Position numbers and translations under genes: made by a program
Shown: one piece after another, positions 31,012-35,420 of the stretch
Numbering within the stretch: position 1 is the first letter of the stretch
Layout: each line of letters starts with the position of its first letter
NCBI RefSeq assembly: GCF_001280425.1
Contig: NZ_LIUF01000009.1
Span: 1-60,388, forward strand
From: Haloarcula rubripromontorii
Lineage (GTDB): Archaea; Halobacteriota; Halobacteria; Halobacteriales; Haloarculaceae
Length of the DNA stretch: 60,388 bases
Direction of reading: 5' to 3'
The notes under the pieces: generated by a model
What the model saw: only the letters and a program-made list of their open reading frames with translations
Databases searched by the model: none
Told to the model about the DNA's origin: nothing

Positions 31012-31079
31012 ACGGTCCCTTCCGGCCGGAACCCCCTGAACCTGGCGAGCTTTTTGGTGTGCCGGCCATTCGTACACAC

Positions 31080-32300
31080 ATGAGCAACGAGTCCCGAAAG
31101 TCGGCCGGGTTCAAGGACCGAACGCCGGTGACGACAGCCAGGGAGACGCTACTCGACGCAGTGTCCCCACACGACCGGACCGAGCGCGTTCCGCTCCGCG
31201 ACGCCGACGAGCGCGTCGTCGCGGGGGACATCACCGCCGAACGAGCGGTGCCCCACTACCGGCGCGCGGCGATGGACGGCTTCGCCGTCAGGGCCGAGGA
31301 CACGTTCGGCGCGAGCCAGCGGTCACCGGCGTCGCTCCGCGTCGACGAGACGGTGACCACGGGCACAGCGGCCCGCGTCCACACGGGCAGTGAACTCCCG
31401 GCCGGGGCCGACGCTGTCGTGATGGTCGAGGAGACCGAGGTGGCCGGCGACAGCGTCACGGTGTTCGACGCGGTCGCTGGCGGGGAGAACGTCGCCCCAA
31501 TCGGCGAGGACGTGGCGGAAGGGCAGACCCTCTACGAGGACGGCCACAGGCTCCGCCCGTCAGACCTCGGGCTGTTGAAGTCGGTCGGCAACGACACTGT
31601 CGAGGTGTACGAGCGGCCAACTGTCAGCGTGATACCGACCGGTGAGGAGTTAGTCCAAGATGACCCCGATCCGGGGGAGGTCATCGAGACGAACGGCCAG
31701 ACCGTCACGCAGTACGTCGAGCGCTGGGGGGGTGACGCGACCTACCGCGACATCGTTACCGACGACGTGGACGCGCTCCGTGCGGCCATCAGCGACGACG
31801 TAGACCACGATATCGTGGTGACGACCGGCGGTTCCTCCGTCGGCGAGCGGGACCTGCTCCCGGAGGTCGTCGACGACCTCGGCGAGGTGCTGGTCCACGG
31901 CGTCGCGCTGAAGCCGGGCCATCCGGTCGCGCTCGGTGTGGTCGAGGAGACGCCGATTCTCATGCTACCGGGGTATCCGGTCGCCTGCATCGTCAACGCC
32001 GTCCAGTTCCTCCGGCCGGCGCTCCGGCGGGCCGGCCACCTCCCGGCGACAGAACCGCCGACCACCGAGGCCGAACTCACGCGGAAGATAGCCAGCGAAC
32101 CGGGGACCAGGACCTACGCCCGGGTGGAACTGCACGACGAGGACGGCGACGGCAAGACCGCGACGCCGACGCGGGCCAGCGGTTCGGGTGTCCTCTCCAG
32201 CGTCGCGCTCGCCGACGGCTGGGTCGTCGTGCCGGAGTCGGTCGAGGGGTACGACGCCGGCGACACCGTGACCGTCGAGGACTGGGAGTGGTCACAGTGA
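31080..32300 (+). CDS. moeA1: Molybdopterin molybdenumtransferase MoeA, paralogue 1
   Basis: The enzyme ligates molybdate (or tungstate) to adenylylated molybdopterin. The 406-residue chain holds the MoeA domains: RRAAMDGFAV near 60-70, GTAARVHTGSELPAGADAVV, the MoCF-type core ISDDVDHDIVVTTGGSSVGE, and the C-terminal barrel. ATG 31080 is preferred over 31059 because a TTTTT element (31050-31055) lies about 28 bases before it. Its TGA overlaps the GTG of the second MoeA gene. Two MoeA paralogues in tandem are common in archaea and may separate Mo from W insertion (established for some organisms, not shown here). Confidence 0.92.
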   Translation: MSNESRKSAGFKDRTPVTTARETLLDAVSPHDRTERVPLRDADERVVAGDITAERAVPHYRRAAMDGFAVRAEDTFGASQRSPASLRVDETVTTGTAARVHTGSELPAGADAVVMVEETEVAGDSVTVFDAVAGGENVAPIGEDVAEGQTLYEDGHRLRPSDLGLLKSVGNDTVEVYERPTVSVIPTGEELVQDDPDPGEVIETNGQTVTQYVERWGGDATYRDIVTDDVDALRAAISDDVDHDIVVTTGGSSVGERDLLPEVVDDLGEVLVHGVALKPGHPVALGVVEETPILMLPGYPVACIVNAVQFLRPALRRAGHLPATEPPTTEAELTRKIASEPGTRTYARVELHDEDGDGKTATPTRASGSGVLSSVALADGWVVVPESVEGYDAGDTVTVEDWEWSQ

Positions 32301-34177
32301 GTGACCGCCGCGAGTTCCGCGACCTGGCCTCGCCCGAGGAGGCCCACGAGGTCGTCGCGGGCCTCGACGTCGACCCCGAACCCGAGACGGTCCCGCTGGC
32401 CGACGCCCGGGACCGCGTCCTCGCCGAGCGGGTCGACGCCGACATCGACGTGCCCGGCTTCGACCGCGCGAGTATGGATGGCTACGCCGTCCACGCCAGA
32501 GACACCTTCGGCGCTGACGAGGCCGACCCGGTGACCCTGTCGGTCGCCGGCGAGGTCCACGCGGGCGAGGAACCGGATGTGACCGTCGATTCGGGCTCCG
32601 TCGCCGAAATCTCGACCGGCGCGGTGATGCCGCCCGGTGCCGACGCCGTCGTGATGGTCGAGCGAACGACCGAGACGGACGACGGCGTCGAGATACGCAC
32701 CTCCGTCGCGCCCGGCGACAACGTGATGCTCGCCGGCGCGGACATCGCGGCCGGGGCGCGCGCGCTCGGTCCCGGAACGCGCATCACGCCGCGGGAGATC
32801 GGCCTCCTGTCGGCGCTGGGCGTCGACGAGGTCCCGGTGCGTGGCCGGCCCCGAGTCGGTATCCTCTCGACCGGCGACGAACTCGTCCGGCCAGGAGACC
32901 CCCTCGACAGCGCCGCCGGCCAGATTTACGACGTGAACAGCTACACGCTGGCCGGCGCGGTCGCGGAGGCCGGCGGCGAGCCGGTGATGTACCCCCACGC
33001 TGGCGACGACTACGAAGAGATGGAGCGACTGCTCCACGAGGCGGCCGACGAGTGCGACCTCGTCCTCTCCTCGGGGTCGACCAGCGCCAGCGCGGTCGAC
33101 GTCATCTACCGCGTCATCGAGGAGCGGGGCGAACTCCGCCTCCACGGCGTCGCCGTCAAGCCCGGGAAGCCGATGCTCGTCGGGACCATCGGCGACTCGG
33201 CGTACGTCGGCCTGCCGGGGTATCCGGTGTCGGCGCTGACTATTTTCCAGACGTTCGTCGCGCCGGCAGTTCGGAACGCTGCTGGACTGGAGCAGCCACA
33301 GACAGCTACGGCCTCCGGCACAATGGCTGTCCAGGAACGCTACGGCGAGGGGCGCAGACGCCTCATGCCGGCCGGCTTAGTCGAGGACGAAGCGGGGTCG
33401 CTGTTGGTCTACCCGGTCGACAAGGGCAGCGGCGCGACGACGAGCCTCGTCGACGCCGACGGCTTCGTCGACGTGCCGCCGGGGACCGACTACCTCGCCG
33501 AGGGGGAGACGGTCGACGTGACGCTGTTCTCCCCGGCCGTCAGGCCGCCGACGCTTCTGGGGATGGGCGAGGACGACCCGCTGCTCTCGCGCCTGCTCGA
33601 CACCATCGACCGTCCGCGGTACCTCCCGCTCGGGTCGACCGAGGGCCTCCGCCGTCTCGGTAACGGCGTGCCCGACGTCGCCGTCGTCGCGGGACCGGCC
33701 GCCGATGACCACGACGCGGCCGACATCGGCGGCTGGCAGCGCGAGTGGGGACTCGTCGTCGGCCCGGAGAGCGACGTGGCCGGCCTTGGTGACCTCGTCG
33801 ACGGAGAGTACCGCTTCGTCAACCGCGACAGCGCCTCCGGACTGCGCCGGAGCTTCGACGACGAACTCGACGCCGTCGGCGAGGACCGTGGCGTCGGCCG
33901 CGCAGAGATCGTCGACGCGATAGACGGCTACGAACTCACGACGAAGGCCCACGAGAGCCCCGCCCGGAAGGTCCTGGCGGGCGATGCGGACGCGGGCCTC
34001 GGGCTCCGCGCCACGGCGGCGAAACTCGACCTCGGCTTCGTCTCGCTGGGGACCCAGCCGGTTCGGGTCCTCGCGAACCCGGACCGCCGGGGGAAAGCCA
34101 GCGTCGGCGCGCTCGCCGAGGCTCTCGACGACCTCGACTCGCTGACCGACGGGATGGCCGGAATGGAGTCGCAGTGA
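32297..34177 (+). CDS. moeA2: MoeA paralogue 2 fused to a PBP-like C-terminal domain
   Basis: The 626-residue product starts at GTG 32297, overlapping the moeA1 stop by 4 bases (GTGA); another GTG at 32288 is possible. Residues 1-400 are MoeA (ASMDGYAVHARDTFGADEAD; ISTGAVMPPGADAVVMVER; VLSSGSTSASAVDVIYRVIE). Residues 410-626 are a periplasmic-binding-protein-like domain (PLGSTEGLRRLGNGVPDVAV; YRFVNRDSASGLRRSFDDEL; AKLDLGFVSLGTQPVRVLAN), as in archaeal MoeA-LysR-substrate-domain fusions. The domain might bind molybdate, tungstate or another oxyanion (inference). It lacks a DNA-binding region. Expressed with moeA1. Confidence 0.92.
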   Translation: MSDRREFRDLASPEEAHEVVAGLDVDPEPETVPLADARDRVLAERVDADIDVPGFDRASMDGYAVHARDTFGADEADPVTLSVAGEVHAGEEPDVTVDSGSVAEISTGAVMPPGADAVVMVERTTETDDGVEIRTSVAPGDNVMLAGADIAAGARALGPGTRITPREIGLLSALGVDEVPVRGRPRVGILSTGDELVRPGDPLDSAAGQIYDVNSYTLAGAVAEAGGEPVMYPHAGDDYEEMERLLHEAADECDLVLSSGSTSASAVDVIYRVIEERGELRLHGVAVKPGKPMLVGTIGDSAYVGLPGYPVSALTIFQTFVAPAVRNAAGLEQPQTATASGTMAVQERYGEGRRRLMPAGLVEDEAGSLLVYPVDKGSGATTSLVDADGFVDVPPGTDYLAEGETVDVTLFSPAVRPPTLLGMGEDDPLLSRLLDTIDRPRYLPLGSTEGLRRLGNGVPDVAVVAGPAADDHDAADIGGWQREWGLVVGPESDVAGLGDLVDGEYRFVNRDSASGLRRSFDDELDAVGEDRGVGRAEIVDAIDGYELTTKAHESPARKVLAGDADAGLGLRATAAKLDLGFVSLGTQPVRVLANPDRRGKASVGALAEALDDLDSLTDGMAGMESQ

Positions 34178-34193: not shown

Positions 34194-35420
34194 GTGACGC
34201 TCGACCCACCGGTCGCCGGCGACCTCGCTGCCCCGTTCCGGTTCGAGTACGACCCCGCGACGCTCCGGTACGCTCCCGACGCCGCCCGAGACCTGGGTGC
34301 GGAGTTGGACGCACAGGGCTGTGACCGGGCGCTGGTCGTCTGCGGGGCGACCGTCGGTGCGACGCCGGCCGTGATGGACCCCGTCCGGGAGGGGCTCGGT
34401 GACCGACTCGCCGGCGTCTTCGCGGAGACGACGCCGGCCAAGCGGCTCGGCACCGCTTACGACGGACTCGACCGCTTCCGCGAGGTCGACGCCGACTGCC
34501 TCGTCGCCGTCGGCGGCGGGAGCAGCCTCGACGTGGCGAAGGTAATCAGTGTCCTCGCGGCCACCGACCGCGACCCCGACGCTGTCGGCCGGGCGCTCGT
34601 AGACTCGGGAACGATACCCGTCCCCGAAGCGGAACTGCCGCCGATTATCGCCGTCCCGACGACGCTGGCGGGCGCTGACCTCTCTATCGTCGCCGGCGTC
34701 ACGGCCCACCCCGACACCTGTCCCGTGGACGGGCCGGCCAGCGGCGGCGTCGGCGACCCGGACCTGATGCCCGCAGCGGTCTGTTACGACCCCGAACTGA
34801 TTGCGACGACGCCCCGGTCGGTCCTCGCCGCGTCGGCGATGAACGGCTTCGACAAGGGCATCGAGACGCTGTACGCGGCCACCGCGACGCCGATAACCGA
34901 CGCGACGGCGTCACACGGCCTCGGCCTGTTCACCGAGGCACTGCGCGCGTTCGGCGACGGCGACGACGACCAGTGGGTGTATCAGTCGCTCGCGCAGGGG
35001 GTCATGCTCGTCCAGTACGGCATCGCCCGGGCCGATGGGACGACGCTCTCCCTACTCCACGCGTTCGGTCACGGGCTGACCCGGACCTACGAGGTCCAGC
35101 AGGGCGCGGCCCACGCGGTCGTCGCCCCGCACGCGCTCTCGTACCTCTTCGAACAGGTCGACGGTCGGCGCTCGCTGCTTGCCGAATCACTCGGCGTCGG
35201 TGACGAGGCCGACCCCGCCGCTGCGGTCGTCGACCGGGTGGACGACGTGGTGGCGGCGCTGGGACTCCCAACGCGGCTCCGGGACGTCGCCGGCCCCGAC
35301 CGCGAGGAGTTCCCCGACGTCGCCGACGCCGTCCTCGAAGACTCGTTCATGGCGAACGCCCCGCCGGGGCTGGAGCCAACCCAGGACGACATCGTCGGCG
35401 TGTTAGAGGCCGCCTGGTAG
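34194..35420 (+). CDS. Iron-containing alcohol dehydrogenase homologue lacking three metal ligands
   Basis: The 408-residue protein has the group III dehydrogenase fold. Residues 1-180 form the nucleotide domain with the GGGSSLDVAKV signature; the C-terminal half is helical. Against the canonical metal site DALxHAIE...H...H, residues 217-224 read NGFDKGIE, so Asp becomes Asn217 and the first His becomes Lys221. His289 (LLHAFGH) is kept, but the last ligand position is Gln303 (VQQG). Classic Fe/Zn chemistry is therefore unlikely. A GTG start 16 bases after moeA2 suggests one operon with the MoeA genes. It could be a reductase or lyase of a different kind, or a regulatory pseudo-enzyme. Confidence 0.85.
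   Translation: MTLDPPVAGDLAAPFRFEYDPATLRYAPDAARDLGAELDAQGCDRALVVCGATVGATPAVMDPVREGLGDRLAGVFAETTPAKRLGTAYDGLDRFREVDADCLVAVGGGSSLDVAKVISVLAATDRDPDAVGRALVDSGTIPVPEAELPPIIAVPTTLAGADLSIVAGVTAHPDTCPVDGPASGGVGDPDLMPAAVCYDPELIATTPRSVLAASAMNGFDKGIETLYAATATPITDATASHGLGLFTEALRAFGDGDDDQWVYQSLAQGVMLVQYGIARADGTTLSLLHAFGHGLTRTYEVQQGAAHAVVAPHALSYLFEQVDGRRSLLAESLGVGDEADPAAAVVDRVDDVVAALGLPTRLRDVAGPDREEFPDVADAVLEDSFMANAPPGLEPTQDDIVGVLEAAW

Follow-up and report, generated by a model that had tools for sequence, protein, structure and literature searches.

A haloarchaeal subfamily of the iron-containing alcohol dehydrogenase fold with an Asn-Lys-His-His-Gln-His set at the former metal site

Maleylacetate reductases (MARs) have the fold of the iron-containing alcohol dehydrogenases (Fe-ADHs) but have been reported to be active without metal, and the change of an aspartate ligand to Asn or Arg has been proposed as the cause (PMC5125639). 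During the breakdown of pentachlorophenol, reduction of 2-chloromaleylacetate and then of maleylacetate by the MAR PcpE yields 3-oxoadipate; mutagenesis of this enzyme identified His172 and Lys238, the latter within the signature LHHKLCHTLGG, as essential (PMC5741723). Bacterial MAR genes occur beside those of ring-cleaving dioxygenases, in Agrobacterium beside a MhqO-like one (PMC12673573).

The window, a stretch of 60,388 nucleotides from Haloarcula rubripromontorii, encodes a protein of this fold. The gene and the residues of concern are as follows.

34194..35420, + strand: ORF with GTG start, encoding a 408-aa Fe-ADH-fold protein of the Asn-Lys-His-His-Gln-His subfamily
34344..34346, + strand: Gly51, at the coenzyme-selecting position, FucO Asp39
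34440..34442, + strand: Lys83, near-invariant in the subfamily, Pro in metal-type Fe-ADHs
34512..34526, + strand: GGGSS dinucleotide-binding sequence motif, residues 107-111, intact
34842..34844, + strand: Asn217, at FucO metal ligand Asp196; Asn in MARs too
34854..34856, + strand: Lys221, at FucO metal ligand His200 and the essential His172 of the MAR PcpE (PMC5741723)
35058..35060, + strand: His289, at FucO metal ligand His263 and PcpE His237; invariant
35061..35063, + strand: Ala290, at the essential Lys238 of the MAR PcpE
35070..35072, + strand: His293, at FucO His267, GraC His243 and PcpE His241, on the substrate side (PMC5125639)
35100..35102, + strand: Gln303, at FucO metal ligand His277 and PcpE His251
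35112..35114, + strand: His307, at FucO Asn281; His in MARs; invariant

A profile search with the 408-residue protein matched the Fe-ADH families PF00465 (E 3.9e-25; 88.8 bits, cut-off 31.3) and PF25137 (E 7.6e-21; 75.1 bits, cut-off 27), which places it in the superfamily; none of the 15 NCBIfam Fe-ADH equivalog models listed scored above its curated cut-off, the best giving 119 bits against 500. Current genome annotation calls the proteins of this subfamily iron-containing alcohol dehydrogenases; they probably contain no iron, and probably are not simple alcohol dehydrogenases.

A first-pass annotation, made from the sequence alone, had paired Asp196, His200 and His277 of FucO with Asn217, Lys221 and Gln303, and His263 with His289, on the strength of an exact 14-residue spacing between the last two positions, and had described the GGGSS motif at residues 107-111 as intact. 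All of this is borne out. Comparisons by hhalign with MARs (E 4.8e-37) and with FucO-type enzymes (E 2.4e-35) give identical ligand pairings, with which a MAFFT alignment of more than 110 homologues agrees; with numbering recomputed, D196, H200, H263, H267, H277 and N281 of FucO correspond to N217, K221, H289, H293, Q303 and H307, and the ligand spacings of 4 and 14 residues are preserved. Unmentioned there were the replacement of FucO N281 by His307 and the nature of the Asp-to-Asn change, both as in MARs. The Asp-His-His-His site of metal-dependent FucO-type enzymes is thus represented by N217, K221, H289 and Q303, and because Asn, Lys and Gln replace Asp, His and His, a classical Fe or Zn site cannot form; going by these residues, it is very probably absent. 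The earlier expectation that neither iron nor zinc is bound stands as regards that site, while the absence of bound metal itself is something we infer. The three alignment routes exclude a misalignment masking a classical site; Asp220, beside Lys221, can be excluded as a substitute ligand, being Asn or Ser in some members rather than invariant.

The survey of ligand positions that the annotation had proposed shows the whole set recurring, down to about 42% identity, among 77 haloarchaeal members. Asn217, Lys221, His289 and His307 are present in every one, though N217 and K221 served to define the group sampled, so that the 100% for these two is partly by definition. Gln303 and Gln274 are each found in 76 of the 77, Glu224 and Tyr227 in all; His293 is kept in 73, with Gln or Asn in the other four, and Lys83 in 76, with Arg in one. 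Within the tree clade the sole exception at K221 is L119 (42% identity), whose set is Asn-His-His-Ala-His-Gln-His. Across 295 genomes of the phylum the subfamily is confined to the window's order, with a gap in identity from about 37% to 30%; the plasmid-borne bacterial homologues sampled have other sets, namely Asp-His-His, Arg-His-His or that of the MARs. The window gene is under purifying selection, with dN/dS of 0.14 against its nearest relative, the 91% identical orthologue of Haloarcula vallismortis, and of 0.14-0.17 against close Haloarcula relatives. Broken copies were also seen: at G024:C2:4968-5088 the gene seems to have lost its interior, since just its two ends (query residues 10-35 and 388-408) are left, next to each other, and in L058 the gene is in two separate pieces.

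In an IQ-TREE phylogeny of 81 sequences, built after removal of the metal-site columns, a single branch (100/99) parts all rows bearing Asp196 from all those without it. The Asp-less side holds the MARs and a bacterial Arg group (each 100/100), together with a haloarchaeal Asn-His-His group and the present subfamily (88/93, and 100/100 when joined with L119). Since the rows lacking Asp196 all fall on one side of this branch, the subfamily and the MARs have lost this ligand in common; with Asn217 and this position, the window protein has the Asp-to-Asn/Arg change of the MARs and lies in their metal-free superclade. Metal loss in the Fe-ADH fold is already known through the MARs, and this explains much of the finding. 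The bacterial group (RHHGHHS; L083-L085, L140 and L141, from Azospirillum, Cupriavidus, Sphingomonas and Rhodococcus) has R-H-H-H with Ser at FucO 281 and is annotated just as iron-containing alcohol dehydrogenase, with acyl-CoA and CoA-transferase type genes adjoining in L083. In the second haloarchaeal group (NHHGHHN; L067, L111 and L118), which the tree likewise puts with the MARs, Asp alone is replaced. Both groups resemble the present subfamily in the replacement of Asp196 and, for those sampled, in their side of the branch, but they keep His200 and His277 and have no lysine in the site. The haloarchaea thus hold a graded series -- Asp-His-His, Asn-His-His, Asn-His-Gln (L119) and Asn-Lys-Gln -- which lets one ask how a metalloenzyme sheds its metal while retaining a catalytic role.

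An AlphaFold2 model built with 18 homologues (mean pLDDT 86.7, pTM 0.86) aligns over residues 16-408 with the full-length, two-domain Fe-ADH fold, with Z up to 47.9. Against FucO-type dehydrogenases Z is 45-48 and against MARs 39-42 (rmsd 2.4-2.6 over 341-344 residues), differences that are partly an effect of chain length and on which the subfamily assignment does not rest. Gly51 is Gly in 72 of the 77 members; Gly at this position indicates NADP(H), by a rule with known exceptions (PMC5125639), and the coenzyme of the subfamily is on this ground probably NADP(H).

In many Haloarcula species the next gene upstream, co-directional and at a distance of 0-12 bp in the four gene-called loci L037-L040, is one for a dioxygenase. 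Its product is homologous to MhqO (3oaj, E 5e-80) and PcpA (4huz, E 1e-44) and keeps the His-His-Glu motif, and beyond it in the Haloarcula loci is a divergent gene for a beta-keto acid cleavage enzyme (BKACE; PF05853, E 7e-84), which at 206.7 bits is below the curated 3-oxoadipate cut-off of 350. A dioxygenase with 65% or more identity to the query used occurs in 12 relative genomes, and in 10 of them its gene directly adjoins the Fe-ADH-fold gene. Linkage extends outside the genus, to an adjacent dioxygenase in L056, L091 and L093, which belong to other haloarchaeal families, to BKACE in L043 and L088 and to both in L042; both are annotated within 7 kb of the gene in Halomontanus, and dioxygenases are nearby in Haladaptatus. 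Below about 56% identity the neighbours of subfamily members are unrelated or other catabolic genes. Haloarcula japonica has a second member, 48% identical (L046 / L051, 13138-14361), adjoining LLM-type flavin enzyme, ribB-like, riboflavin-kinase-like and amidohydrolase genes, which may together form a catabolic island with a two-component monooxygenase.

PcpA makes the substrate of PcpE, and this chemistry together with the operon linkage makes a route from dioxygenase through the present enzyme to BKACE (3-oxoadipate plus acetyl-CoA) chemically coherent. The reading that we favour, with modest confidence, is that the window protein is a functional oxidoreductase which has the Fe-ADH fold but works without metal, is probably NADP(H)-linked and reduces a ring-cleavage product resembling maleylacetate; Lys221 would act as acid/base or bind an anion. 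Both this role and the substrate are what we infer. NAD(P)H, probably NADPH, would be bound at GGGSS, and the emptied metal site would be made up of Asn217, Lys221, His289, His293, Gln303 and His307. Of these, Lys221 and the three histidines may grip a carboxylate or the enolate of an oxo-enedioate substrate and, together, give the proton no longer organised by a Lewis-acid metal, while hydride from the coenzyme would reduce the C=C (or C=O) bond. In hydroxyacid dehydrogenases that work without metal, the proton donor is a lysine. In the ancestral setting a MhqO/PcpA-type dioxygenase would cleave a hydroquinone-type ring before the Fe-ADH-fold enzyme acts, and the product, a 3-oxoadipate-like beta-keto acid, would be passed to BKACE. 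A haloarchaeal route for hydroquinone-type compounds, with BKACE as its last step, is thereby suggested and can be put to the test.

The window's own surroundings are different, in that the gene follows closely upon a tandem pair:

31059-32300, + strand: moeA-type gene, overlapping the next
32288-34177, + strand: second moeA-type gene, ending 16 bp upstream of position 34194

The product of the second has 629 aa and is much extended at its C-terminus, where a PBP-like domain may be present. Neither BKACE nor a pcaJ-type CoA-transferase was found in the window's genome, and there is no adjacent dioxygenase in the window, only a 51% homologue elsewhere in the genome. In H. salina (L037) the order is moeA, moeA, BKACE, dioxygenase, Fe-ADH-fold gene; between moeA and the Fe-ADH-fold gene L033 has just BKACE and L022 just the dioxygenase. 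Because relatives carry one or both of these genes in between, the window is best seen as a derived case and its 16-bp spacing is most simply explained by deletion, and for the same reason a functional link to moeA is disfavoured. In Halobellus and Natronorubrum (L081, L079) the gene has further cofactor genes no more than a few kb away (MobA-like and YqeC; a molybdopterin-binding protein), and their proximity, like that of moeA in the window, may be coincidence. The gene is nevertheless kept under purifying selection without its pathway partners, so that it may have another role in this genome.

This persistence is one of the points in favour of a broader alternative, in which the protein is a metal-free reductase acting at the C=O of some other substrate (a ketone, an aldehyde or another oxo-acid), with Lys221 as proton donor as in the lysine-dependent hydroxyacid dehydrogenases and the ring-cleavage link as the use made of it by one lineage. 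The missing MAR-essential Lys238 and the distant members' neighbours (TRAP transporters, LLM-type flavin enzymes, ribB, hydroxyacid dehydrogenase or TPP enzymes) agree with it; against it are the tight linkage of the window's subclade to dioxygenase and BKACE, and the want of a pointer to any specific alternative substrate, and we regard it as rather unlikely. That a metal is held at a shifted site, by His289, His293 and His307 rather than by the four classical ligands, is quite improbable: His289 and His307 are invariant and His293 nearly so, but four members have Gln or Asn at position 293, the presence of Lys221 and Asn217 makes the old site unfavourable to a cation, and MARs, which have the same three histidines and two more, are reported metal-free (PMC5125639). 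A pseudo-enzyme, as the first-pass annotation had also proposed, or a regulatory or structural dinucleotide-binding protein, might be suggested by the loss of three of four metal ligands and of the pathway partners in this species, but is very unlikely: the invariant polar replacement residues are common to 77 members, dN/dS is low, the operon is shared with catabolic enzymes and the same superclade includes known metal-free catalysis. The first two of these points also lead us to reject a degenerate gene.

With the MARs (cd08177; GraC 3w5s, PcpE, 3hl0, 3jzd and 3iv7) the subfamily has in common the Fe-ADH fold and the superclade, Asn for Asp at the metal site, His at FucO 263, 267 and 281, and the motif SA(L/M)N...LYA. 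It differs in having Gly for Thr at the coenzyme position and Gln303 for PcpE His251, and in place of the MAR signature the window protein has LLHAFGHGLTR. A plain MAR identity is excluded, since both residues essential in PcpE, His172 and Lys238, are replaced, by Lys221 and Ala290; the former is found in all sampled clade members but L119. The haloarchaeal Asn-Lys-His-His-Gln-His proteins are therefore a distinct subfamily. The earlier suggestion of a new functional class goes too far, since metal-free MARs are already known in the same superclade (PMC5125639); the departure of this conserved group from the MARs at both essential positions (PMC5741723) makes it a novel variant. A literature search on haloarchaeal MARs, hydroquinone ring cleavage and Fe-ADHs without metal ligands, with subscription journals mostly outside its coverage, did not find the subfamily; within the literature searched it is so far undescribed, placed inside the metal-free MAR superclade with an active-site solution of its own.

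From the FucO-type enzymes (E. coli FucO, Z. mobilis ADH2 and 1,3-propanediol dehydrogenase), with which it shares the whole fold, the GGGS motif and equivalents of His263 and His267, the subfamily differs in the replacement of Asp196, His200 and His277. Lys238 is confined to the MARs and Lys221 to the present group; because L119 has a lysine at neither place, two separate gains are the simpler account, and a "hop" from Lys238 to Lys221 is disfavoured, L119 being early-branching. The active-site lysines were thus probably gained separately. It is plausible, if somewhat short of probable, that the Fe-ADH fold has arrived at a second, independent metal-free solution, with the haloarchaeal lysine at the former ligand position FucO 200 where the MARs have theirs at 264, serving an archaeal hydroquinone ring-cleavage route of MhqO-type dioxygenase, this enzyme and BKACE.
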